A DNA stretch of 44,271 bases from Bacteroidota bacterium (lineage in GTDB: Bacteria > Bacteroidota > Bacteroidia > J057 > JAJTIE01): assembly GCA_019638695.1 (NCBI GenBank), contig JAHBTG010000016.1:1-44271 (forward strand), read 5' to 3'. Positions 5,254 to 36,229 of the stretch are shown here, piece after piece; position 1 is the stretch's first letter; every line of letters begins with the position of its first letter. A program made the position numbers and the translations under genes. The notes beneath the pieces were generated by a model. The model saw nothing but the letters and a program-made list of their open reading frames with translations. It did no database searches and was not told where the DNA came from.

Positions 5254-5534
5254 ACACTCCAGGGATAAGTAGCAACTAACTGTAAATCAGGCCCTAACCT
5301 TAGGTTAACGCCAGCATGATGAAATATACACATGAGGCGGAGGGGAAAATCCACAAATGCCCATGACACCTGCCTGTCCTCTTGCGTTTAAACGAAATGA
5401 GGCCTATTAAGGTTTTGGAAATTTGGCAAAACCCCTTCCTGTGGCCCCGGGGCGGGCCGCCTGTCGCTTACCTACCATGATAGAGATAGAGTGGGCAGAA
5501 CCGCATCAAAGATGCGCAGGAAAGCCATTTATGC
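5254..5534. other. Intergenic DNA between nrdB and the fibrinogen-like genes
   Basis: This is the rest of the long divergent gap (4856-5596 in total). Between 5254 and 5534 I see no gene and no RNA family I can name. Open frames run through it towards the downstream gene, but they lack any recognisable protein sequence and precede the signal peptide of that gene. Confidence 0.5.
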
Positions 5535-5542
5535 TATCTTTG
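5535..5542 (+). promoter_or_regulatory. -7 box upstream of the fibrinogen-like gene pair
   Basis: TATCTTTG is a perfect TAnnTTTG box. It lies about 55 nt upstream of the ATG at 5597 and has no clear TTG at the -33 distance. It also argues that the start codons further upstream in the same frame are not used. Confidence 0.4.
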
Positions 5543-5596
5543 CTTACTACCTATATGCTGGATTTCTTACGCATACACACATCCTTTGCTAACAAT

Positions 5597-6763
5597 ATGA
5601 AAAGACTATTACTACTTGTACTATGCTGGCTGGCCATCACCTCCTCCCGGGGGCAGAATGTGGGCATAGGCACCAGCAGCCCGCACCCCAAAGCGTTACT
5701 GGATATCGAAAGCACGGACAAAGGCGTGCTCATCCCCCGCCTCACCCAGGCGCAGATCCAGGCGCTGGGCACCCCGCCTGCCGGCCTCATGCTGTTCAAC
5801 ACGGATAGCGGGTGTTTCCAGTATTACAATGGCGCCCAGTGGATACGCCTGTGCAATGACGCGCCCGGCTGCGATACCCCGGCTACACCCACTGCCGGCA
5901 GCAACAGCCCGGTATGCGCGGGCGAGCCCCTGAGCCTCACGGCATCCGCCGTAGAAAGCGCCAACTACGCCTGGACCGGCCCCAACGGGTTCCAGAGCTT
6001 TGACCAGAACCCCGGTATCGCCTCGGCTACGCTGACCATGTCTGGCAACTATATCGTGCGGGCCTGGCGCATGGGCTGCTTCAGCGAGCCCGATACCGTC
6101 ACGGTAACCGTCACGCCCCCACCCTATTTCCGCACTTGTGCCGAGATCCTGGCAGACAATCCTTCTGCCCCCAGCGGCACTTACACTATAGACCCGGACG
6201 GCTGTGCAGGCCCCATAGCTCCCTTCTCCTGTGACTGCGACATGACCACCGACGGCGGCGGCTGGACCCTGGTACTCAACTACCTGCACCAGGGGAACAC
6301 CAACCCCGCCACGCAGGCACGCACCACCGACCTGCCCCTGCTGGGCAGCACGGTACTGGGCACCAATGAAGGGGCCACCGCCTTCTGGGGCCACGCCGCA
6401 CCGGCGCTGATGAGCACTCTCCCGCACACAGAGCTCCGCTTCTGGGCACGCACCGGCGCCCATGCCCGCGTCATCCACTTCAAGACCACCCACGCCGCCA
6501 CCCTGGCCTACTTCCGCACCGGCACAGGCAACACCATTGGCATCAACGGCAGCTTCACGGCACTGACCGGCCACACGGCATTCCTGCCCAACGCCGCCAA
6601 CAACGGCTTTACCACCCAAGGGAATATTGCCATGACGGAATTTCCCATATACCTGGGGGGCACCTACCACTGGGGCATCCGCGGCAGCGGCGGCCGCTGG
6701 GAGGTGGATGACTACCCCAACAATGCCACTCAAAATACTCATCACCAAATCTGGTGCCGCTAA
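5597..6763 (+). CDS. Secreted protein with PKD/Ig-like and fibrinogen-like domains (copy 1)
   Basis: Starting at the ATG at 5597, the protein has 388 residues and opens with a signal peptide (MKRLLLLVLCW...SSRGQ). Longer in-frame starts would bury this signal. Next comes a segment typical of Bacteroidota surface and tail-fibre-like proteins (NVGIGTSSP..LLDIES..KGVLIPRLT..QI, then FNTDSGCFQYYNGAQW). A PKD/Ig-like domain follows (about residues 95-175, SPVCAGEPLSLTA...WTGPNGF...GCFSEPDTVTVTV). The C-terminal half starts like an animal fibrinogen-related domain: SGTYTIDPDG, then a CDCDMTTDGGGWTLVL core. It probably acts as a surface lectin or adhesin, which is inference. No T9SS sorting domain is visible. 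A close paralogue follows 35 nt downstream. Confidence 0.8.
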   Translation: MKRLLLLVLCWLAITSSRGQNVGIGTSSPHPKALLDIESTDKGVLIPRLTQAQIQALGTPPAGLMLFNTDSGCFQYYNGAQWIRLCNDAPGCDTPATPTAGSNSPVCAGEPLSLTASAVESANYAWTGPNGFQSFDQNPGIASATLTMSGNYIVRAWRMGCFSEPDTVTVTVTPPPYFRTCAEILADNPSAPSGTYTIDPDGCAGPIAPFSCDCDMTTDGGGWTLVLNYLHQGNTNPATQARTTDLPLLGSTVLGTNEGATAFWGHAAPALMSTLPHTELRFWARTGAHARVIHFKTTHAATLAYFRTGTGNTIGINGSFTALTGHTAFLPNAANNGFTTQGNIAMTEFPIYLGGTYHWGIRGSGGRWEVDDYPNNATQNTHHQIWCR

Positions 6764-6798
6764 TGACCCGCGCCCTTCTCTCCTCCACATATGGCCCC

Positions 6799-7977
6799 AT
6801 GAAAAGGGCACTCCCGGCCCTGCTCCTGTGCATGGGGCTGCTCATGCCTGGCCATGCCACGGCGCAGCAGGTGGGTATAGGCGCCCCGGATCCGCACCCT
6901 GCGGCCATCCTGGAACTACGGAGCGATTCGCTGGGCATCCGCATCCCGCGCCTCACCCAGCTGCAAATAGATGCCCTAAATCCTGCCCCCGTGGGTTTGC
7001 TGGTATATAATGCCGACAGCAACTGCTTCCAGTTCTGCAAAAGCACCGGGTGGGCCTCTTTGTGCGACAGCACAGGGACAAACGACTGCTTTGCGCAGCC
7101 GGAAGCCATCGCACAAGGCAACACTGTTATGTGCAACGGGCAAACGCTTTACCTGGAAGCCGTGCCACAGGAAAACGCCACTTACGAATGGACGGGGCCG
7201 GGCGGCTTTCGCAGATATGTGCGCAACCCTACCCGTGCGGGCATGACGGCGGCAGAAGCCGGCAATTATGTGCTGCGCACCTACCGCTACGGATGCTTCA
7301 GTGAGCCCGATACTCTGGCGGTAAGCATAGGCACCACCGCCCCCTATGCCAGTTGCCTGCAGATACTGACCGCCCACCCCGGCAGTCCCAGCGGTATATA
7401 TACCATAGACCCGGACGGCGGCGGCGCGTTGTGCCCCATGCCCTGTTACTGCGATATGACCACCGACGGCGGGGGCTGGACCCTGGTGCTCAACTACCTG
7501 CACCAGGGCGGCACCAACCCCGCCACACAGCCGCGCACCACCGACCTCCCCCTGCCGGGCAACGATGTGCTGGGCACCAGCGAGGCCGCTACCGCCTACT
7601 GGGGCCATGCGGCACCCGCGCTCCTGAATGCACTGCCACACACAGAGCTCCGCTTCTGGGCACGCACCAACGTCCATGCCCGGGTCATCCACTTCAAGAC
7701 CTCTCACGCTGCTACACTGGCTTACTTCCGCACGGGCACCGGCAGCATGAGCGGCATCCAGAGCAGCTTCACGGCGCTGGCCGGGCACTCAGCCAATATC
7801 CCCGCCGCCGCGAACAACTGGCACATCAACCAGGGAAATAATGCCATGACAGAGTTCCCTTTCTTCCAGAACGGGACCTACCACTGGGGCATCCGCGGAC
7901 TGGGCAACCGCTGGGAAGCAGATGACTATCCCAATAATGCTACGCAAGACACTCATCACCGGGTCTGGGTGCGTTAG
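6799..7977 (+). CDS. Secreted protein with PKD/Ig-like and fibrinogen-like domains (copy 2)
   Basis: The protein has 392 residues from the ATG at 6799, which is followed by a clean signal peptide (MKRALPALLLCMGLL...TAQQ). The architecture equals that of the upstream gene: the VGIGAPDPHPAAILELRSDS / IRIPRLTQLQIDAL segment, a PKD/Ig-like domain with paired Cys, then SGIYTIDPDGGG, CDMTTDGGGWTLVLNYLHQG and the ending WGIRGLGNRWEADDYPNNATQ. The DNA of the C-terminal halves is very alike in the two genes, which indicates a fairly recent tandem duplication. The N-terminal and Ig-like parts have diverged more. It is probably co-transcribed with copy 1. It ends 12 nt before the convergent era gene. 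Confidence 0.8.
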   Translation: MKRALPALLLCMGLLMPGHATAQQVGIGAPDPHPAAILELRSDSLGIRIPRLTQLQIDALNPAPVGLLVYNADSNCFQFCKSTGWASLCDSTGTNDCFAQPEAIAQGNTVMCNGQTLYLEAVPQENATYEWTGPGGFRRYVRNPTRAGMTAAEAGNYVLRTYRYGCFSEPDTLAVSIGTTAPYASCLQILTAHPGSPSGIYTIDPDGGGALCPMPCYCDMTTDGGGWTLVLNYLHQGGTNPATQPRTTDLPLPGNDVLGTSEAATAYWGHAAPALLNALPHTELRFWARTNVHARVIHFKTSHAATLAYFRTGTGSMSGIQSSFTALAGHSANIPAAANNWHINQGNNAMTEFPFFQNGTYHWGIRGLGNRWEADDYPNNATQDTHHRVWVR

Positions 7978-7989
7978 CCGCAGCCTCTC

Positions 7990-8907
7990 TTACTCGTAGC
8001 CAAAGCGACGCAACCACTCGGGGCGGTCCTTCCAGTCTTCGGCCACACGCACATAGAGCTCCAGGCGCACCGGCTGGCCCAGCATATGGGCAATCTCTTT
8101 GCGGGCGGCCGTCCCTATCTTTTTGATCATGGCCCCTTGCTTGCCAATGACCATAGCCTTTTGTGTCTGGCGGGCTACATGGATCTCGGCTTCTATATGC
8201 ACAGGGTCATCCCCCTCGGCATCCTTGTAGAAGAGAATGGTCACTTCCGTGTGGTAAGGGATCTCCTGGCGCAGGAAGAGGAACACTTTCTCCCGGATGG
8301 TCTCTGCGGCAAAGAACCGCATGGGGCGGTCGGTCAGCTGGTCCTTATCATAAAACGGCGGACTCTCGGGGAGGATGGCCACCAGGGTATCCAGGAGTTC
8401 AGATAACCCTATCTGCCTGAGGGCGCTGATCACACAAGTGGCGCGGGGCTTCACCCATTGCAGCTCTTCGATACGCGCCTGCACCTTGTCTGCGGGGTAA
8501 GCATCGCACTTGTTAATGACCAGTATGCGGGGAATATCCGGGTGCAGTGCCAGCAATTCGCGCACCGGGGTTTCATCAAAGATCTCTTCAGGATGCGCCA
8601 TGAGTACCAGGGCATCTGCATCCTGCAAGGCGCTACCGGCAGACTGCATCATGCTCTTGTGCAGCTCATAGCGCGGCGCAATGAGACCCGGCGTATCGGA
8701 AAAGATGATCTGCCAGTCATCCGTGCTGACAATACCCAGGATGCGGTGGCGCGTGGTCTGCGCCTTGGGTGTTACAATAGCCAGTTTCTCCCCTGCCAGT
8801 GCGTTTAACAGGGTACTTTTGCCCACATTGGGCTTGCCCAGCAGGGCGACAAAACCGGCACGATGAGGAACTTGGGACAAGAGCTCTGGAGAAAAGGACC
8901 GGCACAA
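7990..8907 (-). CDS. era: GTPase Era, 16S rRNA maturation
   Basis: Era binds the 3' end of 16S rRNA and helps 30S assembly. The GTPase domain shows the P-loop GKPNVGKST, the switch region KAQTTRHRI, DTPG and the specificity motif NKCD. The C-terminal KH domain follows (VIGKQGAMIKKIG, then LELYVRV). The start is uncertain. No in-frame ATG precedes the P-loop; TTG codons at 8907 and 8880 are the candidates. A perfect -7 box (TATCTTTG, 8912-8905) overlaps the first TTG. Together with the usual short Era N-terminus (HRAGFVALLG), this favours TTG 8880. The outer limit is given here. It stands alone between two surface-protein gene groups. Confidence 0.95.
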   Translation of the reverse strand: MCRSFSPELLSQVPHRAGFVALLGKPNVGKSTLLNALAGEKLAIVTPKAQTTRHRILGIVSTDDWQIIFSDTPGLIAPRYELHKSMMQSAGSALQDADALVLMAHPEEIFDETPVRELLALHPDIPRILVINKCDAYPADKVQARIEELQWVKPRATCVISALRQIGLSELLDTLVAILPESPPFYDKDQLTDRPMRFFAAETIREKVFLFLRQEIPYHTEVTILFYKDAEGDDPVHIEAEIHVARQTQKAMVIGKQGAMIKKIGTAARKEIAHMLGQPVRLELYVRVAEDWKDRPEWLRRFGYE

Positions 8908-8964: not shown

Positions 8965-9693
8965 CTAGAACCGGATGCCATGATTGCCGTTACCACTGGC
9001 ATCGCACACATCTCCGCCGGGCAGGCAGGTACCGGCAGTCCCTTCATCCAGGCGATAGTAAGCCGCCAGGCCAGGCTCGGAGCCCTGCAGGGTCTGACAC
9101 ATCTGCCGGCGGATCTCCGTGAGCGAGAGGGCGCGGCTCCAGACCCTGGCTTCGTCTATACTCCCGGCAAAAGGTCTGAAGAGACCGGTCACCTGGGCGC
9201 CCAGGTTCAAAGGCACCGGGCTGGGCGGCGTGGGGTTGAGGCCATTGCCTGCCTGGGTAAACGTGGCCTCCAGCCGGCCGTTGACATATAAGCGGCAGGT
9301 ACGGTCCGGCGTCCATACCCCGGCAATATGCGTCCACACATAGGGTTGTAACGAAGTGGCAGAAACGCCTCCGCCTTCGCTGGTAACGCCGTCGGCCACG
9401 GCAAAGCCCGCCCTGTCTCCACTCAGGAACAGCACATACTGATCATTGGAAACATGGTAGGCCCATTTGGAAACTACACATTGTACGCCGGCCAGGCGGG
9501 TGGGATATACCCAGGCCTCCAGCGTGAGCCCGCTCCAGCTTCCGTTCAGCGTAGCGCCATTTCCACAGTGCACATAGTTATTTATACCATCAAAGCTCAG
9601 GGCATATTGGCTGCCCTGCGCCTGCAAACCGGGCAGGAGAGTTCCTGACAGGCCTAACAGGAGGAGGAATAATGATTTCATATGATAATTCAT
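8965..9693 (-). CDS. Exported single-domain LamG protein, array copy 8
   Basis: This is the last of eight tandem paralogues. The frame opens with ATG 9693, which overlaps the upstream stop as TGATG. The signal peptide proper begins at a second ATG at 9681 (MKSLFLLLLGLSGTLLPGLQAQ), so either may be used. The mature protein is one LamG/concanavalin-like jelly roll: YALSFDGINNYVHCG at its start, TLEAWVYP, WTHIAGVW, LYVNG, then the family signature SIDEARVWSRALSLTEIRRQM. It ends with the array-specific tail GTCLPGGDVCDASGNGNHG plus two or three residues. LamG folds usually bind glycans or peptides, but no ligand is known. No sorting domain or lipobox is visible. Confidence 0.82.
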   Translation of the reverse strand: MNYHMKSLFLLLLGLSGTLLPGLQAQGSQYALSFDGINNYVHCGNGATLNGSWSGLTLEAWVYPTRLAGVQCVVSKWAYHVSNDQYVLFLSGDRAGFAVADGVTSEGGGVSATSLQPYVWTHIAGVWTPDRTCRLYVNGRLEATFTQAGNGLNPTPPSPVPLNLGAQVTGLFRPFAGSIDEARVWSRALSLTEIRRQMCQTLQGSEPGLAAYYRLDEGTAGTCLPGGDVCDASGNGNHGIRF

Positions 9694-10427
9694 CAGTATC
9701 GGGTTCCATGATTGCCATTACCGCTGGTATCGCATACATCTCCACCGGGGATGCAGGTGCCCGGGGCGCCTTCATTCATAGGATAACAGGCGGCCAGGCC
9801 AGGCTCGGAGCCTGCCAGCTTCTGGCACATATTGCGGCGGATCTCATCTGCCGTAAGCGCACGGTTCCAGAGGCGTACCTCATCTACCATGCCATTGATA
9901 TAACCGGTCTGCGCGCCGGCAGCATTGATATAAGCCTCTTTCCCCACATAGATATAGTCAATATTGACCGCATACTGGCCATTCTGGTTATGCGTAAGGG
10001 TGCTTACCTGCAGTCCGTCCAGGTATAACCGCAGCTGCGAAGCGGTGCATACGCCCGTGACGTGATGCCAGGCATCATCCATAGGATAATCTGCCTGCAC
10101 CACCTGTGCACAGCGATTGGTACCGCGCACACCCATCGCCAGCTTGTTGCCTTCCGTAATGTAGAAGTTGATGGCCGAGAGGTTGCAGCCGGTGGAAGCA
10201 TTATCCCGCTGGACAAAAATAGCATTGTACTTAAGCGTTCCCCCGCCCGTGCCCAGCAGGCGCACCCAGGCTTCTATAGTAAACTCAGAAGCGGTGATGG
10301 TGGCATGCTGCAAGGCAATATGGCTGGCAAGTCCATCAAAATGCAGGGCCTTGCCCGCGCCCTGCCCATAGACAACGCAGCAACAGCAACAACCGATGAC
10401 CAGTGCCGCAAGTCTCTTCTTGTACAT
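9693..10427 (-). CDS. Exported single-domain LamG protein, array copy 7
   Basis: The protein has 244 residues from ATG 10427, chosen because it begins the signal peptide (MYKKRLAALVIG...VVYGQ). The longer frame upstream only shadows the end of copy 6. A run of five Cys sits in the signal peptide, an oddity that would be removed on export. The LamG domain follows the array pattern (GAGKALHFDG, FTIEAWVRL, WHHVTGVC, LYLDG, DEVRLWNRALTADEIRRNM). The C-terminus is the shared tail TC.PGGDVCD.SGNGNHG. The usual YYRMDEG is CYPMNEG here. The start lies 4 nt after the stop of copy 6, and its own stop overlaps the start of copy 8. Confidence 0.82.
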   Translation of the reverse strand: MYKKRLAALVIGCCCCCVVYGQGAGKALHFDGLASHIALQHATITASEFTIEAWVRLLGTGGGTLKYNAIFVQRDNASTGCNLSAINFYITEGNKLAMGVRGTNRCAQVVQADYPMDDAWHHVTGVCTASQLRLYLDGLQVSTLTHNQNGQYAVNIDYIYVGKEAYINAAGAQTGYINGMVDEVRLWNRALTADEIRRNMCQKLAGSEPGLAACYPMNEGAPGTCIPGGDVCDTSGNGNHGTRY

Positions 10428-10431
10428 ATGG

Positions 10432-11112
10432 TTAGAATTTGATGCCATGATGGTCATTGCCGCTGGCATCGCACACATCTCCGCCGGGAGAGCAGGTGCC
10501 GTCCGCGCCTTCGTCCATGCGGTAATAGGCGGCCAGACCGGGCTCTGCGCCCGTAAGCTTCTGGCACATATTGCGGCGGATCTCATCTGTCGCAAGCGCA
10601 CGGTTCCAGAGGCGCACTTCGTCTAAGGTAACGGGGAAGAACCCATTGAGCCCGTCATTGGATGCCAGGTAGAGCGGCACGGTGTTGCTAATGTCTGCCG
10701 GATTGGCAGCAACGGAAACGCTGGCCTCCAATATCCCATCTATATATACTTGCTGCTGGCCGCCTGCCTGCACCACCCAGGTTACATGATGCCAGTTGCC
10801 GTCATGTATGGCAGACGTGCTTTGCACGGGAATGGCACTGGTACCCACATGCTCAAAGACCACGCGCCCGCTACTAAGATAGGCCAGCGCGCCCCTGGTA
10901 TTGAGGTATTTATCCATTACCCTGCCGCTGGCAGCAGAGGTCTTCACCCACATCTCCATACTGAAGCTCTGCGTGAGGCCAATACCGGCACTATGCGGAA
11001 TCGCTACGTAGGCAGAGATCCCGTCAAATGCCAATGCCTTGCCGGCACCCTGCGCCCGCACCGCGGTGATACTGATACCGGCTGCTACCAGGAAAAGAAT
11101 GCAGTATTTCAT
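10432..11112 (-). CDS. Exported single-domain LamG protein, array copy 6
   Basis: The protein has 226 residues, the shortest of the array. Its signal peptide (MKYCILFLVAAGISITAVRAQ) begins with the same MKYC as copy 5, so these two may be the closest pair at the N-terminus. The LamG domain reads GAGKALAFDGISAYVAIPHS, SMEMWVKT, WHHVTWVV, VYIDG and LDEVRLWNRALATDEIRRNM. It ends YYRMDEG, then the Cys-pair tail TCSPGGDVCD and SGNDHHGIKF. The gap to copy 5 is 13 nt. It is exported, with no visible anchor. The ligand is unknown. Confidence 0.82.
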   Translation of the reverse strand: MKYCILFLVAAGISITAVRAQGAGKALAFDGISAYVAIPHSAGIGLTQSFSMEMWVKTSAASGRVMDKYLNTRGALAYLSSGRVVFEHVGTSAIPVQSTSAIHDGNWHHVTWVVQAGGQQQVYIDGILEASVSVAANPADISNTVPLYLASNDGLNGFFPVTLDEVRLWNRALATDEIRRNMCQKLTGAEPGLAAYYRMDEGADGTCSPGGDVCDASGNDHHGIKF

Positions 11113-11125
11113 ATGAGGTTCTCAA

Positions 11126-11818
11126 TTAATGCAGGGTCCCGTGGTTGCCGTTGCCGCTGACGTCACACACATCGCCGGAGGGTGAGCAGGTATTACCTGC
11201 CGCTTCATCCATACGGTAATAGGCCACCAGACCGGTCTCCGTACCCGTAAGTCTCTGGCACATATTGCGGCGGATCTCTTCCGGGGTGAGGGCACGGCTC
11301 CAGATACGTACTTCGTCTATTTCGTTCATCCAGTATTGGCTGTCAAACCAGTACCGGCCTATCTCCAGGTTGGCGCTATTCGCCAGGTTGGTACTGGTAT
11401 AGCCCGTGCTGCCGCTGGCCGCCAGGACGCCGTCCACATAGATAAACATCTGGTTATTGGCCCATATGCCTGCTACATGGTGCCACTGGTTATCGGCATA
11501 GTTCACCCCAACAGGGGTGCCCACACTTTTATAGCTGCCCGAGCCGTCTCTGCCCGCCAGGCCGAATACGCCGTTCGTGCTCATGTATAAATGATAGCCG
11601 CGGTCTGCAGAAGCATTGTATTTGCCGCATATCCACCGATAGTTGGGTTGATTGGTGCGCACCCAAGCTTCTATACAGACGGTATGGGTAATACCCATAT
11701 TGTTTGCGCTCATGCGCACATAGTTATTCGTCCCGTTAAAGCGCAACGCCTGGCTGCTGCCCTGTGCGTGTACCCCCCCGGCAGTGCATACCCAAAGGAT
11801 AAATAAGCAGTATTTCAT
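11126..11818 (-). CDS. Exported single-domain LamG protein, array copy 5
   Basis: The protein has 230 residues from ATG 11818, the start of the signal peptide (MKYCLFILWVCTAGGVHAQ). The frame is open further upstream, but there it only overlaps the tail of copy 4. The LamG domain contains SSQALRFNGTNNYVRMS, VCIEAWVRT, WHHVAGIW, IYVDG and IDEVRIWSRALTPEEIRRNM. The tail is YYRMDEAAGNTCSPSGDVCDVSG, ending NHGTLH. The C-terminal signature is nearly the same as in copy 4 (RIWSRALTPEEIR), which points to duplication of neighbouring units. The gap to copy 4 is 13 nt. Confidence 0.82.
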   Translation of the reverse strand: MKYCLFILWVCTAGGVHAQGSSQALRFNGTNNYVRMSANNMGITHTVCIEAWVRTNQPNYRWICGKYNASADRGYHLYMSTNGVFGLAGRDGSGSYKSVGTPVGVNYADNQWHHVAGIWANNQMFIYVDGVLAASGSTGYTSTNLANSANLEIGRYWFDSQYWMNEIDEVRIWSRALTPEEIRRNMCQRLTGTETGLVAYYRMDEAAGNTCSPSGDVCDVSGNGNHGTLH

Positions 11819-11831
11819 CTGGCCAATAAGA

Positions 11832-12590
11832 TTAATGTAAGGATCCATGATTATGATTGCCGCTGGCGTCACACACATCTCCACTGGGCAGGCAGGTACC
11901 GGCAACGCTCTCATCCATACGATAATAAGCAGCCAGGCCGGGCTCTGCTCCTGTAAGTTTCCGGCACATGTTATGACGGATCTCTTCCGGGGTGAGGGCA
12001 CGGCTCCAGATACGTACTTCGTCTATGTTGCCGGTAAAAGGCGCATAATAACCTGTGCCCGGTCCGGACGTTTCATAGTCGCTGCGCTGAGCTATCCGGA
12101 TATAATCTGTGCTGGCAGGAGTGCTATAGCTGACCGTAAAAGTACCTTGCTTGATGAGTACCCCGTTGAGGTAATACTTCCAGTTCCTGGAGGCATCTAC
12201 GCTAAAGGCAATATGCGACCAGGTCTGGGCTTGCGGTATCTCAGCAGTTGCCAGCGTGATGTTATTGGCCGTATAGGCCCCGTCAGAGAACAAGTAGGTG
12301 CTACCGGCAACATTCAGCAGCATGAGCTGAAAGCCATTGCCACCGTTGACATATGCCCGCCCATAGCCCACTATATTGCCGCCCGGAGTATAGGCAAGGG
12401 GGTACACCCAGGATTCCAGGGTGCGGGCAGCTGTGCCTGTAGGGAGGTTGACCGGCGCAGTCACTTCTATATAGTTGTTACTGGTGCCTGCAAATTGCAG
12501 GGCCTGGTGGCTCCCCTGCGCCCACCCACCTAACGGGAGGAATACCAGCCCAACAAGTATCCGTATGTTCATACAACAAGGAAAAGTCAT
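11832..12590 (-). CDS. Exported single-domain LamG protein, array copy 4
   Basis: The protein has 252 residues from ATG 12590, which touches the stop of copy 3 (TAAATG). The signal peptide may begin at the second ATG at 12572 (MNIRILVGLVFLPLGGWAQ). The LamG core reads SHQALQFAGTSNNYIEVT, RTLESWVYPL, WSHIAFSV, YYLNG and IDEVRIWSRALTPEEIRHNM. The tail is YYRMDESVAGTCLPSGDVCDASG, ending NHGSLH. The central region between the first strands and the DEVRIW motif differs strongly from the sister copies, while the last 60 residues are conserved. This is as expected if the copies present different binding loops on a shared frame. Confidence 0.82.
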   Translation of the reverse strand: MTFPCCMNIRILVGLVFLPLGGWAQGSHQALQFAGTSNNYIEVTAPVNLPTGTAARTLESWVYPLAYTPGGNIVGYGRAYVNGGNGFQLMLLNVAGSTYLFSDGAYTANNITLATAEIPQAQTWSHIAFSVDASRNWKYYLNGVLIKQGTFTVSYSTPASTDYIRIAQRSDYETSGPGTGYYAPFTGNIDEVRIWSRALTPEEIRHNMCRKLTGAEPGLAAYYRMDESVAGTCLPSGDVCDASGNHNHGSLH

Positions 12591-13274
12591 TTAATACAAC
12601 ACCCCATGGTTTCCATGGCCGCTGGTATCACACACGTCGCCTGCGGGCAGGCAACTGGCAGGAGCGCCCTCGTCCATGCGATAATAGGCAATGAGCCCGG
12701 GTTCTGTTCCGGCCAGCTTGGCACACATCTCCCGGCGAATTTCGGCCGGCGTCAGTGCACGGTTCCAGAGGCGCATTTCATCGGCAATGCCATCCAGGTG
12801 GCGGGTGCCCAGGGTAATACTGCGCCCTATATTCATATTCCCCAGCAAGGCGCCCGGGGCAGAGAGTTCTGTGCTCTGGGCAATGACCTCGCCATTCCTG
12901 TACAGGGTATTCTGGTTAGTGGCATCATCGAACACATAGGCCAGGTGTACCCATTCCTGGGGAGGAATGGAACCTGCGGGGGCCAGCACATTGCAACTGG
13001 TGGAGATATACCCGCACAGCTCTCCGGTAGCAAATACCTGCAACCCAAAACGCTGGTTGACATTTGTGCCCTTTTCTACCAGGACGGGATAGTTGCCTGC
13101 TGTGCGGAGATAGACCCAGCATTCTACGGTGAAGCTACTGGTAATGCCCAGCGAGGCCGAGTTGTCTACCGATATGTACTGGCTACCGTTCAGGCTGATG
13201 GCCTGGCCGGCGCCCTGACCATAGGCAGCAAGGAAGAAACACGGGAATAGTAGTGTGAGGAAGTGCTTTTTCAT
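12591..13274 (-). CDS. Exported single-domain LamG protein, array copy 3
   Basis: The protein has 227 residues with the signal peptide MKKHFLTLLFPCFFLAAYGQ. The LamG domain contains GAGQAISLNGSQYISVDNS, FTVECWVYLR, WVHLAYVFDD, LYRNG and ADEMRLWNRALTPAEIRREM. The tail reads YYRMDEGAPASCLPAGDVCDTSGHGNHG and ends VLY. It starts 7 nt after the stop of copy 2 and touches copy 4 directly, so translation along the operon is probably coupled. There is no lipobox, transmembrane anchor or T9SS domain. Confidence 0.82.
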   Translation of the reverse strand: MKKHFLTLLFPCFFLAAYGQGAGQAISLNGSQYISVDNSASLGITSSFTVECWVYLRTAGNYPVLVEKGTNVNQRFGLQVFATGELCGYISTSCNVLAPAGSIPPQEWVHLAYVFDDATNQNTLYRNGEVIAQSTELSAPGALLGNMNIGRSITLGTRHLDGIADEMRLWNRALTPAEIRREMCAKLAGTEPGLIAYYRMDEGAPASCLPAGDVCDTSGHGNHGVLY

Positions 13275-13281
13275 GGTCTGG

Positions 13282-14028
13282 CTAGAATTTTACGCCATGA
13301 TTACCCTTGCCGCTGGCATCGCACACGTCCTGCCCGCCGGGACAGGTATCGTCGGTCCCTTCATCCATGCGCCAGTACGCTTGCAGGCTGGACTGCCCGG
13401 CAGGCTGACGTTCACACATCTTGTGGCGGATCTCCTCCTGTGTCAGGGCACGGTTCCAGAGCTGCATCTCGTCCAGTATGCCGGTATAATAGGCGCCAAA
13501 GGCGGTGGGCGGGCGGCCCATATAGAGTTCACGGGTGTTATACTCTATACTGAAGTTGCTGGGATACCCACCGGGCGAAGGGTCAAAGGTGGTGGCCATG
13601 GGTATGCCATTGGCATAGATAATGCCGTCGGTACTGTTGAAAGCATTACGCCGATAGACAAAGGCAATATGGTGCCACTGGCCTGCGGCCAGCCCGGCAG
13701 TAGTGGTCCAGCCAGGATAAGAACCCAGGGTCTGGTTCTGCACATTGCAGGCCAGTGCATTACCCGGATTCCGGTAAATGGTGTAACTGCCCCACCCACC
13801 GTCGCTGGATATCCACTTGCGCAGGATGACCTGCCCTGTGCCGGAGGCAACATCGGGAAAATAGACCCAGCAGCTGATGGTGAGCTCATTGCCCAGTTGG
13901 ATGGTGGCGCTGTTGTTCACCCGCACATAGTCGTTCCCGTCAAAGCGCAACGCCTTACCCGCGCCCTGTCCATAGGCCAGTTGTAACAGCACGCCTGTAA
14001 AGAATAAGGTAACCAGTTGCTTTTTCAT
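13282..14028 (-). CDS. Exported single-domain LamG protein, array copy 2
   Basis: The protein has 248 residues with the signal peptide MKKQLVTLFFTGVLLQLAYGQ. The LamG domain reads GAGKALRFDGNDYVRVNNS, LTISCWVYFPD, WHHIAFVYRR, IYANG and LDEMQLWNRALTQEEIRHKM. The tail is the most divergent of the array. The usual GTEPGLAAYY is GQSSLQAYW, and the Cys pair is spaced TCPGGQDVCD instead of TCLPGGDVCD. Both cysteines and the ending SGKGNHGVKF are kept. It lies 6 nt after copy 1. Confidence 0.82.
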   Translation of the reverse strand: MKKQLVTLFFTGVLLQLAYGQGAGKALRFDGNDYVRVNNSATIQLGNELTISCWVYFPDVASGTGQVILRKWISSDGGWGSYTIYRNPGNALACNVQNQTLGSYPGWTTTAGLAAGQWHHIAFVYRRNAFNSTDGIIYANGIPMATTFDPSPGGYPSNFSIEYNTRELYMGRPPTAFGAYYTGILDEMQLWNRALTQEEIRHKMCERQPAGQSSLQAYWRMDEGTDDTCPGGQDVCDASGKGNHGVKF

Positions 14029-14034
14029 ACCTGG

Positions 14035-14772
14035 CTAGAATTTGATTCCGTGATATCCGTTGCCGCTGGTATCGCACACATCGCCGGAGGGCAGACAGGT
14101 ACCATTGACCCCTTCGTCCATGCGATAATAGGCCGCCAGGCCCGGCTCCGTACCAGCCAGTTTCTCGCACATCTTATGCCTGAGGTGCTGAACGGAATGG
14201 ACCTGCTGCCACACCCGCACTTCGTCTATATATCCCTGCATGTTGCAACAGGGCTCGGAGTAACCGGTGGTGAAGCTGGCCGGTACGTCATAGGTAGCGG
14301 CAGCCATAGCAGCAGTGCCCACAGCCTCTCCGTTGACATAGAAGGTATAGTTATCGCCCTGTTTGGTGAGGGCATAATGGTACCAGCGTCCCAGGCTGAG
14401 CGGAAAGGCATTGGAATAGACCCAGTAGCCATTGCCGTAGCCCGGACCGTTGATATGATAGGCCAGCCTGCCGTTCTGCAACCCCCAGAACCACTTGTGC
14501 TGGTTATTGCCGGGGCCCAGGTCCTTGCCCAGTATGGTGAAGCAGGTACCTCCCAGCGCGGCAGGCGGCGTATCATCTACCCGCACCCAGGCTTCCAGGG
14601 TAACATCCCCCACCAGCTCAAAGACATTGGTAGCGGGGTCTCCCATATTCACGCCATTGGAACCGTTGAACCGCAAGGCATAGCCGCTCTGCGCCCGGGC
14701 ACCCGGACCCGCCAGAGCAAGACAGCCCAGGAATGCCGCTAACATACTTTTTATACACAGTCTCTTCATCAT
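14035..14772 (-). CDS. Exported single-domain LamG protein, array copy 1
   Basis: The protein has 245 residues. Its ATG overlaps the stop of the preceding T9SS gene (ATGA overlap at 14769-14772). The signal peptide is MMKRLCIKSMLAAFLGCLALAGPGARAQ. This is the most diverged member: SGYALRFNGSNGVNMGDP, VTLEAWVRVDD, WYHYALTKQGDNYTFYVNG, and YIDEVRVWQQVHSVQHLRHKM in place of the usual WNRALT.EEIR. It has extra Cys (TCFTIL, CCNMQG). The shared tail YYRMDEGVNGTCLPSGDVCD with SGNGYHGIKF is intact. Its position directly behind the sorted protein suggests a structural partner role, which is speculative. Confidence 0.82.
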   Translation of the reverse strand: MMKRLCIKSMLAAFLGCLALAGPGARAQSGYALRFNGSNGVNMGDPATNVFELVGDVTLEAWVRVDDTPPAALGGTCFTILGKDLGPGNNQHKWFWGLQNGRLAYHINGPGYGNGYWVYSNAFPLSLGRWYHYALTKQGDNYTFYVNGEAVGTAAMAAATYDVPASFTTGYSEPCCNMQGYIDEVRVWQQVHSVQHLRHKMCEKLAGTEPGLAAYYRMDEGVNGTCLPSGDVCDTSGNGYHGIKF

Positions 14773-15833
14773 TGGTCAAGCTTAACTACCTGCCGGGTAT
14801 AGGGGGGTACCTGCGGGCTACCGATACGCAAATGATAGATCCCGGCCCGCAATCCTTCGGTATTGAGTTGAAACACTTCCCCGGGTGCCAGGGTAGCTTC
14901 CCTGCGGAGCACCTCTCGCCCCAAAGCATCGATAAGAGCTATCTGCACGACAGTTTCCTCCTGCAATGCCACGCTGACGAGCAGCCTGTCCGTAAGGGGG
15001 CTGGGAAACACCTGCACCTGAGCGGCAGGTGCGTGCAGCACGGTGGCCAGGTTGCTATACGCAGCCGTGCCGTCCAGGTCTACCTGGCGCAGACGGTAGT
15101 AGAGACGGCCGGTGGTCTCAACGGCATCCGTATAGGCATAGGTATTCGGCCGGGTACTGTAACCGGCTGCCGCCAGTTGATGCACAGGATCAAACACCCG
15201 CCCGTCCGTGCTCCGCTGCAGCTCAAAGTAGGCCGAATGGGTTTCGGTCTCCGTTCGCCATTGCAGGGCTACCCGGGCATCGGGCAATAAGCGGGCGCTC
15301 AGGCGCAGACGCTCTACCGGCAGGATCACCACGGAATCCAGGATAAACTCCTGGCGGCCTGTGTGGCTGAACGTAATGTTGTCATTGGTCTCATCCCGGG
15401 TGCTACCCAGCTCATCCCAGGCCGTAATATCATTACGTTCGCGTCCGTAGACCGTGATCGTGGGTTCATTCAAAAGCGTGAGGTTGCTGTTAGTGCCGTA
15501 GTGAATGCTGACATCATACCCGGCAGCCACATTCCCTACCGGGAAAACCCCCCAGTAGACATTATTGCGGATGGAGCCGCCCATCAGTCCGGTAGTGTAG
15601 TTAGGAGCGGACTGCACCCGGTACAGGTGAAATCCCGCAAGTCCGGCCCCGCTGAAGTTGCTCACCCGTGCGGTATCCTCGCTGTTCAGGTTAATACTCA
15701 GGCTTTGCCCGGCCCAGCTGACCGGGTATACGTATACACTGGTATCCCCAATGGGTGCGCCGGAGTCTACCCATGTGGGCTGGGCGCACAAACTGCCCCA
15801 TCCCCCCAGCAACATGATGATTAAATATCTCAT
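14769..15833 (-). CDS. T9SS type A sorting domain surface protein, first gene of LamG operon
   Basis: The protein has 354 residues. A signal peptide (MRYLIIMLLGGWGSLCAQ) is followed by an unassigned beta-rich region of about 170 residues. Then comes the fibronectin-like motif common in T9SS cargo (ALQWRTETETHSAYFELQRSTDGRVF, about residues 189-270). A C-terminal type A sorting domain (about 275-354: VFPSPLTDRLLV, LIDALGREV, LNTEGLRAGIYHLRI, VVKLD) closes the protein. The sorting domain would take it through the outer membrane by type IX secretion. It is the promoter-proximal gene of the array and the only one of the nine with a visible surface-sorting signal. A degenerate -7 box (TACTTTCG, 15868-15861) lies upstream. 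Confidence 0.82.
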   Translation of the reverse strand: MRYLIIMLLGGWGSLCAQPTWVDSGAPIGDTSVYVYPVSWAGQSLSINLNSEDTARVSNFSGAGLAGFHLYRVQSAPNYTTGLMGGSIRNNVYWGVFPVGNVAAGYDVSIHYGTNSNLTLLNEPTITVYGRERNDITAWDELGSTRDETNDNITFSHTGRQEFILDSVVILPVERLRLSARLLPDARVALQWRTETETHSAYFELQRSTDGRVFDPVHQLAAAGYSTRPNTYAYTDAVETTGRLYYRLRQVDLDGTAAYSNLATVLHAPAAQVQVFPSPLTDRLLVSVALQEETVVQIALIDALGREVLRREATLAPGEVFQLNTEGLRAGIYHLRIGSPQVPPYTRQVVKLDQ

Positions 15834-31436: not shown

Positions 31437-34400
31437 ATGAAGGTTATTTTGTCGTTACTGCTTGTACTTATGCTAGGCATAAGTGTGCGGGCTCAACTCA
31501 CTATTCTTGACCAGCCCTTTACCACCGGGCCTTTTGTGTCTGGCACGCCCGCACAGCATCAGTTTAATGCTATAGCGGTTACCGGCAGCACTACTGTGGC
31601 CACCGGTGCCGGTGCGGCTGTATTTACCCAGGCTGCCTCTGCAGGCACAGGCTATATAGCCCGCACTACAGATCTGACGACCACGCCTACCCTGGCATCC
31701 ATCTCCTTTAGCTATCGGCAGAACGTAAACTCGGCACAGACCAGCAAACTGCGATTTTATTGTGGCAGCGGGCTGGCAGCCAGTAATGCAGATGAAAACT
31801 GCTATGCACGATTTGATATAGACACGCGCACCACAAGCGGTGGCACGCAACGTCTTGCGCTGAGAAGGCGGGATGGCACCGCTGCTACCAGCAACCAGAA
31901 TAATACTGCCGCAACAACCATTACCTGGATACTGAACAATACCGGCAGCACACAAAACTATACAGGCCCGGATGGTGCTACCTACTCTATAGCCAATGAC
32001 GTAGCAGACCTCTGGTATGGCAATACACGGGTATTTAATGGAATGGCGACCAATCAGCCGGCGCAATCCATCACCGATTTCAAGATAGTGGTAACTAGTA
32101 CCGGCAACGTAGCCGGCACGTATACCTTTGACGATATACTGATACGCGACCTGGGCCAGCTGAACACGACGACAGCCAGTTATGGCCCCTATTGTGCAGG
32201 CGCCACAGGCATCAGCGTGCCTTTTACCAGCGCCAACGCCACCTTTAATGTAACCAACGTATTTACAGCCCAACTCTCCGACGCCAGTGGCAGCTTTGCC
32301 GCCCCTACGGCAATAGGCACATTTGTTTCTATGTCTGTCAGTGGCAATGTGAGCTGTACTATACCTGCAGGCACGGCCGCCGGCACAGGGTACCGCATTC
32401 GTATAGTAAGTAGCGACAATGCCTTTGCTGGCACCGACAACGGCAGTGATATTACGATCAATGCGGCTTCTGTTTCTACCAATACTGCCGCTTATGGACC
32501 CGTCTGCGTAAGTGACCTGGACAGTTCGTCCAGTTTCAATGTAGGCTATGGCAGTGTATGCTCTGCGGCTTTCAATGCGGGCAATGTGTTTTCTGTGCAG
32601 CTATCCAACGCCAGTGGCAGCTTTGCTTCACCCATTACCATTGGTACACTCGCCGGCACAACCGGCTCCGGCAGTATCCCCAGCCGCATCCCTCCCGGCA
32701 CAGCCGCCGGCACGGGCTACCGCATCCGTGTGGTAAGCAGCAGCCCCGCACTTGTCTCAACCACGAACAACGGCAGCAATATCACGCTGACAAAACCCTC
32801 TGTGACTATTCCCACCTTTCCTTTCCAGGCATTTGGTTCGGGCGGTGGCGGCGCTGCCGTTACAGCCACGCTGGCAAACGGCGCCAGCAATTATCAGTGG
32901 GGGTACCGCCTGTTTAGCGGGGGCACTATCTACAACCTCGCCGGCCGTACCAGCGCCAGCTATACACCCCTTGGGGCAGATTTTCCCGGCCGCGGCACTT
33001 ACTACCTGGTATGCACCAGCATAGGCTGCGGAGGTGTTTACAATGCAGTGAGCGAAGAACTATTATTGGAGATCGACTGCCCCACCTCTACCAACCTGGT
33101 GATCAATGGCGACTTTAGTCTGGGCGACACGGGCTTTACTTCAGAATATACCGTATACACTCCTGGCTCAGGAGGCTGTGCCGCTGGCTGTATTGACAAT
33201 ACTGCACCTTATGCCGGCAGCTGCTATTGTTTCCAGAAGTATGTAGTAGACCAGATACCCGCCAAGTATAACCGATACTTTTGCGGTGGCACACAGAACG
33301 GCATAGGCCCTATGCCTGCCTCTCCACCTGCCGGAGTAGGAGGTAATTTTCTGATAGGTGACGGTTCCGATACTTTTGCTGCAGACTTGTGGCAGCAAAC
33401 GGTCACTGTTACGCCTTATACGGACTATGTGTTTACCTTCTGGGCATTGAGCCTGACAGGCGCGGCCGGTTCCGTACAGGAGGGGAAGTTCAACTTTGGC
33501 ACCTTTGCAGATTGCACGCAGATAGGCAGCAACCTGGATTTTCCGGCAGGCACAGGCTATTCCTGCACATGGTACAAGTACTCTGCCCACTGGAACAGTG
33601 CCAACAGAACAAGTGTACAGCTGGCTATACGCAACATGAGCTTCTCTGGCGACGGCAATGATATAGCGGTTGATGGCATCCAGTTCTACGCCTGTACCGA
33701 TGGCCTTTCTTTCTATCCGCCTTCAGTAAAATACACCTGGCGTGGAAGCGTAAACAGTGACTGGACCAACCCTGACAACTGGGGTACCTGCACCGAACTG
33801 CCCACCTGCGGCGACAGTGTGGTAGTACCTGCCGGCTGCCCTAACTATCCTGTGCTTACCAACGGACAGACAGCCAACACCCAGCGCCTGAGGATCAAGC
33901 CCGGCGCCAGCATGACACTCAATACCGGCGCTATCCTGAATGTTTGCGGCAGTCTCTATCAAAACGGCACGCTGACAGCGGCTACAGGTTCTACCATCAA
34001 CTTTACCACTACCGGCCCAGACAGCCTGGTGGGTAGTCTGAACGGCAGCAATAGTATGGGTAATCTAACCGTAAATAACGGGGCCGGTACCCTTACATTG
34101 TATACCCATGCCGCCGCCGCAGGCAACCTTACCCTGACCACTGGCACCCTAAACCTGAACGGATATACGATGCAGGTGGGTGGCAACCTTACACACAATG
34201 CGCCATTGGCGGCCAGCAACGGTACCGTAGAGTTCCATACCGCCGCCAATGGCAACTACACCCGTGGGGCAGGAGGCACAGGTAACTTCTATAACCTGAC
34301 CATGAACAAAACATCGGCTACTGCCACGGTTACGGTAGGCGCCAACAGTAACATGATGGTGGGCAATACACTCGTGCTTTCCAGAGGTATCATAGTGGCG

Positions 34401-35525
34401 CCTAATGGTAGCACACAAAACGTGACTGTACTGAACCGTGCTGAGAATGCGATTACGAACCATTCTGCAAACAGCTATATACGCGGCTACCTGCGGCGCT
34501 ATATCAACAGCCTGGGCAGTTACGATTTCCCGGTGGGCCACGCCACCAAGCTGTACCAGCTGGCCAACATCAACTTCTACAGTGCCACCACTATAGACAA
34601 CCTGCTGGCCAGCTTTGCCACCTATGGCACCCTGCCTGCCAATCCGCTGAACGGTATCACCCAATGTGCCGCCATCTATGACCAGCCGGCACTGGACAAT
34701 GGCAAATGGACTATTAGCGCCTATAATGCCGGCCTCGGCCAGATAAGTGGTGACGGCCAGTATCTGGCAACGCTTTACAATACCAATTACACCAATGATA
34801 TTGGTATGGTAGCCTGGAGGGTAATGAAAAGCGAGAACAGCGGCACTACCTGGAGCAGCCCTTCCGGCTGTGTAGGGGATATCAGCTCGCCCGGCAACCC
34901 TTCTATGCTTTTCACCGGGTTTTCCGACTTCGGCACGGGTCAGGCAGCCACTTCCGTACTGCCCCTGGAAAGCCTGAACTTTGAAGCAACGCCTGTAAAC
35001 AATGACGTTCGCCTCAACTGGCGCAGCAAGAATGAGATCAACACCTCCTACTATGTGCTGGAGCGCAGCGCCACAGGAGAAGACTTTGCATCTATTGCCT
35101 CTGAGCCTGCAACAGGCTCACCTACCACCACCACCAGCTATGTCTATACCGACCGCCCCGGCCCCTACTCCATTCTGTATTATCGCCTGCGTGTTGTAGA
35201 TGCAGACGGCAGCATGGCCCACTCCAACATTGCAGTGGTACAGGCCGGAAGCAACGGGCTTAGCCTGAAGTGTGTGCCCAACCCCGTAACAGGCGGCAAT
35301 ACCCTGCAACTGCATTTACAGATGAACGAAACACAACTTGTGAAGCTGCAGGTAGTAGACATTACCGGTCGCGAAATATGGTCCTCAAATCAGGTGAGGG
35401 CCGCCGGATCTCAAACCATCAGCATACCCACACAGGGATGGAGCCAGGGCACTTACTGTGTAATAGCCAACACCAGTAAGCAGAATGTGGCGAAGCGGAT
35501 CGTAATCACATCCGGTCACAACTAG
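31437..35525 (+). CDS. Large T9SS type A sorting domain surface protein
   Basis: The protein has 1362 residues. A signal peptide (MKVILSLLLVLMLGISVRAQ) precedes a beta-rich N-terminal domain (about 22-240). Two homologous Ig-like repeats follow (about 243-343 and 345-451), sharing NASGSF.(S/A)P..IGT and PGTAAGTGYRIR(I/V)VSS. Next is a Cys-rich jelly-roll-like region starting NLVINGDFSLGDTGFTSEY (about 551-760), then a long beta-solenoid-like stretch beginning WRGSVNSDWTNPDNWG (about 765-1050). A fibronectin-like motif (NFEATPVNNDVRLNWRSKNE) leads to the C-terminal type A sorting domain (about 1263-1362, VVDITGREIW, QGTYCVI, KRIVI). It is exported by type IX secretion and displayed or released. 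It may be an adhesin. Confidence 0.85.
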   Translation: MKVILSLLLVLMLGISVRAQLTILDQPFTTGPFVSGTPAQHQFNAIAVTGSTTVATGAGAAVFTQAASAGTGYIARTTDLTTTPTLASISFSYRQNVNSAQTSKLRFYCGSGLAASNADENCYARFDIDTRTTSGGTQRLALRRRDGTAATSNQNNTAATTITWILNNTGSTQNYTGPDGATYSIANDVADLWYGNTRVFNGMATNQPAQSITDFKIVVTSTGNVAGTYTFDDILIRDLGQLNTTTASYGPYCAGATGISVPFTSANATFNVTNVFTAQLSDASGSFAAPTAIGTFVSMSVSGNVSCTIPAGTAAGTGYRIRIVSSDNAFAGTDNGSDITINAASVSTNTAAYGPVCVSDLDSSSSFNVGYGSVCSAAFNAGNVFSVQLSNASGSFASPITIGTLAGTTGSGSIPSRIPPGTAAGTGYRIRVVSSSPALVSTTNNGSNITLTKPSVTIPTFPFQAFGSGGGGAAVTATLANGASNYQWGYRLFSGGTIYNLAGRTSASYTPLGADFPGRGTYYLVCTSIGCGGVYNAVSEELLLEIDCPTSTNLVINGDFSLGDTGFTSEYTVYTPGSGGCAAGCIDNTAPYAGSCYCFQKYVVDQIPAKYNRYFCGGTQNGIGPMPASPPAGVGGNFLIGDGSDTFAADLWQQTVTVTPYTDYVFTFWALSLTGAAGSVQEGKFNFGTFADCTQIGSNLDFPAGTGYSCTWYKYSAHWNSANRTSVQLAIRNMSFSGDGNDIAVDGIQFYACTDGLSFYPPSVKYTWRGSVNSDWTNPDNWGTCTELPTCGDSVVVPAGCPNYPVLTNGQTANTQRLRIKPGASMTLNTGAILNVCGSLYQNGTLTAATGSTINFTTTGPDSLVGSLNGSNSMGNLTVNNGAGTLTLYTHAAAAGNLTLTTGTLNLNGYTMQVGGNLTHNAPLAASNGTVEFHTAANGNYTRGAGGTGNFYNLTMNKTSATATVTVGANSNMMVGNTLVLSRGIIVAPNGSTQNVTVLNRAENAITNHSANSYIRGYLRRYINSLGSYDFPVGHATKLYQLANINFYSATTIDNLLASFATYGTLPANPLNGITQCAAIYDQPALDNGKWTISAYNAGLGQISGDGQYLATLYNTNYTNDIGMVAWRVMKSENSGTTWSSPSGCVGDISSPGNPSMLFTGFSDFGTGQAATSVLPLESLNFEATPVNNDVRLNWRSKNEINTSYYVLERSATGEDFASIASEPATGSPTTTTSYVYTDRPGPYSILYYRLRVVDADGSMAHSNIAVVQAGSNGLSLKCVPNPVTGGNTLQLHLQMNETQLVKLQVVDITGREIWSSNQVRAAGSQTISIPTQGWSQGTYCVIANTSKQNVAKRIVITSGHN

Positions 35526-36148: not shown

Positions 36149-36229
36149 TAAACAACAGCCCCACGGGGTTGCGCGGGATGCACACTTGTGCCATCCCCAC
36201 ATTCTGTTTTACTATACCCTTCCACCCTT

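Follow-up and report, generated by a model that had tools for sequence, protein, structure and literature searches.

Known LamG and T9SS surface proteins

The RemA lectin of Flavobacterium johnsoniae is a surface adhesin of the type 9 secretion system (T9SS) that carries a type A sorting domain (PMC12618676), and it is one of several known systems that resemble a nine-gene operon of a Bacteroidota bacterium (contig JAHBTG010000016.1, assembly GCA_019638695.1). The operon occupies positions 8965-15833, on the minus strand, of the 44,271-nucleotide (nt) stretch analysed here, which is referred to as the window, and consists of a T9SS-sorted lead gene followed by eight genes for single-LamG proteins. 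Taken as a whole, the system shares with RemA a signal peptide, a binding domain and a type A sorting domain, but the binding domain is here located on a different chain from the sorting domain. DUF1735-LamG3 carbohydrate-binding proteins of polysaccharide utilisation loci, such as BT3986 and BACOVA_03559 (PDB 4DQA; PMC11216935), have the same LamG fold and the same kind of C-terminal tail as the eight LamG proteins; however, they are lipoproteins anchored by DUF1735, whereas the LamG subunits of this operon are of the signal peptidase I type and contain neither DUF1735 nor such an anchor. Fused T9SS proteins of Bacteroidia (for example, the 593-residue protein L123 of genome G012) combine the same LamG subfamily and tail, an unnamed domain termed APIGD, a fibronectin type III (FnIII)-like region and a type A sorting domain, in the order found across this operon. 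Each of these fused LamG-APIGD proteins is one polypeptide with one head, while here one holder and eight heads are encoded separately, with the holder gene first. In addition, a metagenome-assembled genome (MAG) of Candidatus Poribacteria (L094) contains four adjacent genes (positions 9800-13800), each for a free-standing protein of about 256-262 residues with a single LamG domain; these proteins differ in their N- and C-terminal motifs, and no lead gene is visible near their genes. A literature search, with most subscription papers outside its scope, found no published description of LamG arrays or of a LamG/APIGD split.

The present operon may represent a split surface lectin, in which one T9SS-exported holder is combined with exchangeable heads that dock by a constant tail; the probability of this reading is estimated at about one half.

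Fused and split forms of the LamG-APIGD pair

The APIGD domain comprises approximately 145 residues at the N-terminus of the lead protein (15285..15785, minus strand), where it begins with AQPTWVDSGAPIGDTS; this part of the mature lead has no Pfam or NCBIfam name. Of 395 genomes searched within the class, 40 contain the domain. Among the genomes that were read, and leaving aside split loci and loci truncated at a contig end, all 20 have APIGD immediately after a LamG domain of this subfamily in the same reading frame, about 15 of the 40 APIGD genomes not having been read at locus level. The two profiles are separated by 3-19 residues across 24 distinct junctions, with a median of 8 over the 30 rows listed, and in one protein (L125) the LamG-APIGD pair is repeated three times. 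The fused proteins continue past APIGD with further domains, several of them with FnIII and a T9SS sorting domain. In the present operon LamG and APIGD do not occur in one chain, and the genome has a single APIGD match, in the lead, as against eight LamG heads.

The position of the cut corresponds to the linker of the fused proteins. The split heads end in ...SGNGNHGIKF and the mature lead begins with QPTWVDSGAPIGD, whereas the fused junctions read ...NNGSLRNTPTWSTSGAPIG (L101) and ...LTGSFLNGPSWVTSGAALGD (L012). Heads stop and the mature lead starts at the LamG/APIGD linker, where both match the fused proteins without loss, and in split and fused forms alike the profiles span LamG with its tail and APIGD over their full length. 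The C-terminal residue is aromatic (F or Y) in six of the eight heads and H in the other two. Split heads in general, those of L016, L017 and L022 included, mostly have an aromatic residue at the C-terminus (HGxKF, HGTLY), and this position is not kept aromatic in the fused proteins; it could possibly serve as a signal for docking or stability.

In an APIGD tree, the split leads fall in two places, one uniting this genome with G001 (twice; support 100/100) and the other G189 with L022 (97/82), a topology that fits either one fission or two and cannot decide between them. Fission of a fused ancestor is the simpler direction, since fused proteins occur widely whereas the split arrangement has a patchy distribution, although the tree does not settle it.

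A single-LamG array behind a T9SS-sorted lead gene

Nine reading frames, the lead and the eight LamG genes (c1 to c8), are present and intact on the minus strand. The lead gene (14769..15833) encodes 354 residues comprising a signal peptide, APIGD, the FnIII-like region and the T9SS type A C-terminal sorting domain (14817..15011; Por_Secre_tail/TIGR04183), which scores just over the curated cut-offs (PF18962, 27.5 bits against 27; TIGR04183, 27.2 bits against 23). The lead thus has the features of a T9SS cargo, namely a signal peptide, a C-terminal sorting domain and a T9SS in its genome, which encodes a PorU-type sortase (1,094 bits) and has 74 matches to sorting domains.

Directly behind it lies c1 (14035..14769, 244 residues, tail 14035-14226, E 5e-19), the most divergent of the eight copies, followed on the same strand by c2 (13282..14028, 248 residues, tail 13282-13473, E 8e-27), c3 (12591..13274, 227 residues, tail 12591-12782, E 2e-25), c4 (11832..12572, 246 residues, tail 11832-12023, E 6e-24, with another possible start at 12590), c5 (11126..11818, 230 residues, tail 11126-11317, E 3e-28), c6 (10432..11112, 226 residues, tail 10432-10623, E 2e-24), c7 (9693..10427, 244 residues, tail 9693-9884, E 4e-26) and c8 (8965..9681, 238 residues, tail 8965-9156, E 4e-25, with another possible start at 9693). 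All E-values refer to Laminin_G_3 (PF13385), which matches each of the eight proteins once (69-99 bits, E 5e-19 to 3e-28; curated cut-off 27.6 bits). In total, 14 LamG domains were matched in this genome, eight of them in the array and five others in two proteins of about 1,060-1,090 residues.

The sequence-only reading of this DNA had proposed eight consecutive minus-strand genes, each with a signal peptide and one LamG domain, behind a T9SS-sorted gene, and the frames together with the PF13385 and Por_Secre_tail/TIGR04183 matches bear this out. It gave sizes of 226-252 residues, which become 226-248 with the most likely starts. The tight spacing it described also holds, although the gaps measure 4-18 nt rather than 0-13 nt and the only stop/start overlap is that of 1 nt between the lead and c1; several overlaps appear only if less probable starts are chosen. 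Sites resembling promoters or terminators do not occur more often than in shuffled sequence.

All nine proteins, the lead included, carry an N-terminal signal peptide followed by Gln, a pattern known as the Bacteroidetes Q-rule (PMC5837995), and because of it they resemble signal peptidase I substrates rather than lipoproteins. No DUF1735 match or lipoprotein signal was found in the LamG proteins, every mature end being Gln after an A/G site; this comparison with the lipoprotein class (SusE/SusF, DUF1735) did not include a systematic search for SusC/SusD neighbours. Likewise, none of the eight LamG proteins matched the Por_Secre_tail profile, so that they lack the sorting domain of a T9SS cargo.

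Arrays in other genomes

Split versions occur in four genomes, all of the array genomes being drafts or metagenome bins: a lead with eight LamG genes (this genome), with 20 (G001), with four, a Kelch gene and one more (L022), and with one (G189). Homologues of the same lead gene head the arrays in G001, in L022 (from Bacteroidetes MAG S141_50; G335 apparently contains this same contig) and in G189. Tandem arrays of variable copy number, which the sequence-only reading had proposed to look for in related strains, recur in other genomes behind homologues of one lead gene. The flanking genes are unrelated: GatB and Era flank the present operon, RecF and a sigma factor stand beside the array of G001, aspartate carbamoyltransferase beside that of L022, and BT2802-like and histidine-kinase-like genes beside that of G189. 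No further split system was seen around G189 and G335 among the loci listed, not every one of which was read.

In G001, the sole other genome of the same family, the 20 LamG genes are distributed over two contigs whose ends overlap exactly by 141 bp in the correct orientation; they likely form a single run behind one lead that spans an assembly break inside the repeats. L018, from Flammeovirgaceae MAG 42896_E20, is 99.97% identical to part of this array. On contig 12 of G001 (L016), one LamG copy (845-1567) contains an in-frame TAG, and the lead (7834-8907) has ATG AAA TAG just before its signal peptide and no in-frame ATG start. Assembly error, decay or a non-ATG start may account for these features.

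Constant tails and variable bodies

The last ~63 residues of the LamG proteins form a conserved tail. Within arrays, the tails are 64% identical in this genome, 80% in G001 and 71% in L022, and the bodies 22%, 23% and 26%, respectively; body identity is 22% between genomes and 25% between fused proteins, whose tails share 45%. A conserved C-terminal end with a divergent remainder, as the sequence-only reading had described, is therefore confirmed. The same tail is the standard C-terminal part of this Bacteroidota LamG subfamily and is not peculiar to these genes. Part of the broader interpretation offered there also stands: the recurrence of arrays of varying size supports a set of diversified lectin-like subunits that are made together behind a T9SS gene, but the relation of lead and LamG genes as two halves of a fused protein had been overlooked.

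Four-fold synonymous sites in the tails are more alike than expected by chance (0.50 and 0.56 against about 0.32, and 0.36 against 0.30 in L022), a chance value that ignores amino-acid-specific codon preference and that is also exceeded between this genome and G001 (0.45). In G001, the recent duplicates b7 and b8 have a synonymous divergence (dS) of 0.40 in the body and 1.30 in the tail, while for the pair a2 and b4 the values are 3.4 and 1.24; older pairs have tails younger than their bodies. Because tail divergence does not track body divergence, tails appear to have been exchanged between copies in that genome. Ratios of nonsynonymous to synonymous divergence (dN/dS) in G001 pairs are 0.03-0.09 for the tails and, where the bodies could be measured, 0.11-0.27 for these; such low values in both parts indicate purifying selection on tails and bodies of the related copies. 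The most recent G001 duplicates give no sign of positive selection on the bodies (dN/dS 0.19 and 0.27). Retroelement-driven diversity, with the array as target of a diversity-generating retroelement, was also considered and set aside, as this genome (96% complete) has no RVT_1 match. A LamG tree leaves orthologues between this genome and G001 unresolved.

An AlphaFold2 model of c6 (37-row alignment) adopts a LamG jelly roll with strands in the tail (pLDDT 84.7, pTM 0.82). The top PDB match of this model is 4dqa (BACOVA_03559). This protein is annotated as putatively carbohydrate-binding, and the tail is present in its sequence as well. The possibility that the tail is a new T9SS sorting signal was rejected as a first choice, given that it is internal in the fused proteins and part of the LamG fold.

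A proposed holder with exchangeable heads and its alternatives

Domains that form one chain in certain genomes and separate chains elsewhere often act together. The fused form in other genomes, the shared operon, the constant tail and the presence of only one APIGD match in this genome suggest that the heads dock on the lead, and the LamG fold of the heads suggests sugar ligands. Under the split-lectin reading, the lead gene would supply the shared part (APIGD, FnIII-like region and sorting domain), which is exported and anchored via the T9SS, and the eight LamG genes would supply alternative heads, each delivered to the periplasm by its own signal peptide. There the tail of a head, which in fused relatives runs into APIGD, would dock non-covalently on APIGD, perhaps with a contribution from the free N-terminus of the lead (QPTWVxSG). 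A disulfide link was ruled out on the holder side, where the translated mature chain lacks cysteine. Head-holder pairs, presumably with one head per holder at a time, would then be exported jointly and reach the surface via the sorting signal of the holder, and the variable bodies could confer differing ligand specificities on one constant plug.

The stronger version of this proposal is held only tentatively and is rather doubtful: a one-socket, many-plug adhesin, in which any one of the 8 to 20 heads encoded with a T9SS-anchored holder can dock on it non-covalently and be displayed, and heads without sorting domains cross the outer membrane on the signal of the holder. If true, it would be a new way to vary surface binding in Bacteroidota and, as far as the literature surveyed shows, the first case of partner-borne T9SS cargo, and it would test the rule that type 9 secretion requires a protein's own sorting domain. 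With heads and holder separate, surface binding could be changed by gene duplication and expression rather than by altering one long adhesin; moreover, the array would provide a natural set of heads sharing one docking tail, and the unnamed APIGD domain would gain a function.

Several observations weigh against the split-lectin reading. According to the known rule, a T9SS cargo bears its own sorting domain, and the LamG heads, having none, are expected to stay periplasmic if the lead does not carry them. The control without a sorting domain in T9SS export tests with F. johnsoniae was mCherry bearing only a signal peptide (PMC10994853), and the literature search found no precedent for T9SS cargo borne by a partner. 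The tail lies within the LamG fold, and its conservation could reflect stability alone; the model of the lead (two-row alignment, pLDDT 48) was unusable and was not used. Furthermore, in L019, whose contig is cut off within the array, at least three LamG genes lie in tandem directly downstream of a glycosidase-like gene and no lead is visible, so a lead need not stand next to the array. Conversely, contig 2 of G001 holds an orphan lead homologue (L117, 1672-3844) without LamG genes alongside and with a frame broken in the assembly; its APIGD is 65% identical to that of the present lead, and the protein also has Ig-like repeats and a sorting domain of T9SS type B. Fused/split logic is also known to give false positives with common domains such as LamG.

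The LamG proteins might instead be free periplasmic or secreted sugar binders that share an operon with a T9SS protein because both serve the same substrate, without binding each other. This explanation is a serious one, though unlikely to be correct: it accords with the complete LamG fold, own signal peptide and missing sorting domain of each protein, with the L019 array and with the tandem genes of the Poribacteria MAG, but it leaves unexplained why the cut falls exactly at the linker of the fused proteins, why the lead comes first in four unrelated contexts and why tails remain constant while bodies diverge. A fixed multi-subunit surface assembly, with all heads together in one heteromeric complex and the lead as its base, would suit the single tight operon as well as the open frames and low dN/dS kept by the G001 copies; it is nevertheless improbable, as a head number ranging from 1 to 20 between genomes and the internal TAG in one G001 copy fit a repertoire better, and the lead offers only one APIGD copy.

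The independence of tail and body divergence (b7/b8 and a2/b4) and the homogenised tails within a genome also agree with a cassette reservoir, in which use is confined to the LamG gene next to the lead, and the copies further downstream act as donors of bodies that are transferred by recombination via the conserved tails. Silent cassettes, however, usually lack 5' ends, whereas each copy here has its own start, signal peptide and stop at a spacing of 4-18 nt, and c1 did not arise recently from any of the other copies, which makes a reservoir of this kind very unlikely. A single long multi-LamG gene disrupted by frameshifts or decay is refuted by the sequence; the sequence-only reading had named breakage by sequencing frameshifts as one outcome that would overturn it. 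Although multi-LamG proteins exist in this genome and in relatives, those of this genome lack the tail motif of the array, and the operon has nine signal peptides, start codons and separate stops; in addition, intact single-LamG genes stand behind the same lead in three further genomes, and the related G001 copies are under purifying selection (dN/dS 0.03-0.27).

Other features of the window

A 1,362-residue T9SS type A protein is encoded at 31437-35525 on the plus strand; over its last ~250 residues it is similar to the lead in the FnIII-like region and sorting domain. Just past Era, two tandem plus-strand genes (5423-6763 and 6754-7977) share an N-terminal region of the form QxVGIG...PHPxA.L.L.S...G..IPR.T and have fibrinogen-like C-termini. 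The same N-terminal region is combined with Kelch repeats in a gene located inside the LamG array of L022 (10329-11501). Finally, a plus-strand frame of 1,452 residues (36188-40546) joins a CusA/CzcA-type permease of the resistance-nodulation-division family (1,100 bits) to an outer membrane efflux protein (OEP) domain (residues 1082-1255), apparently an inner-membrane pump fused to its own outer-membrane channel.

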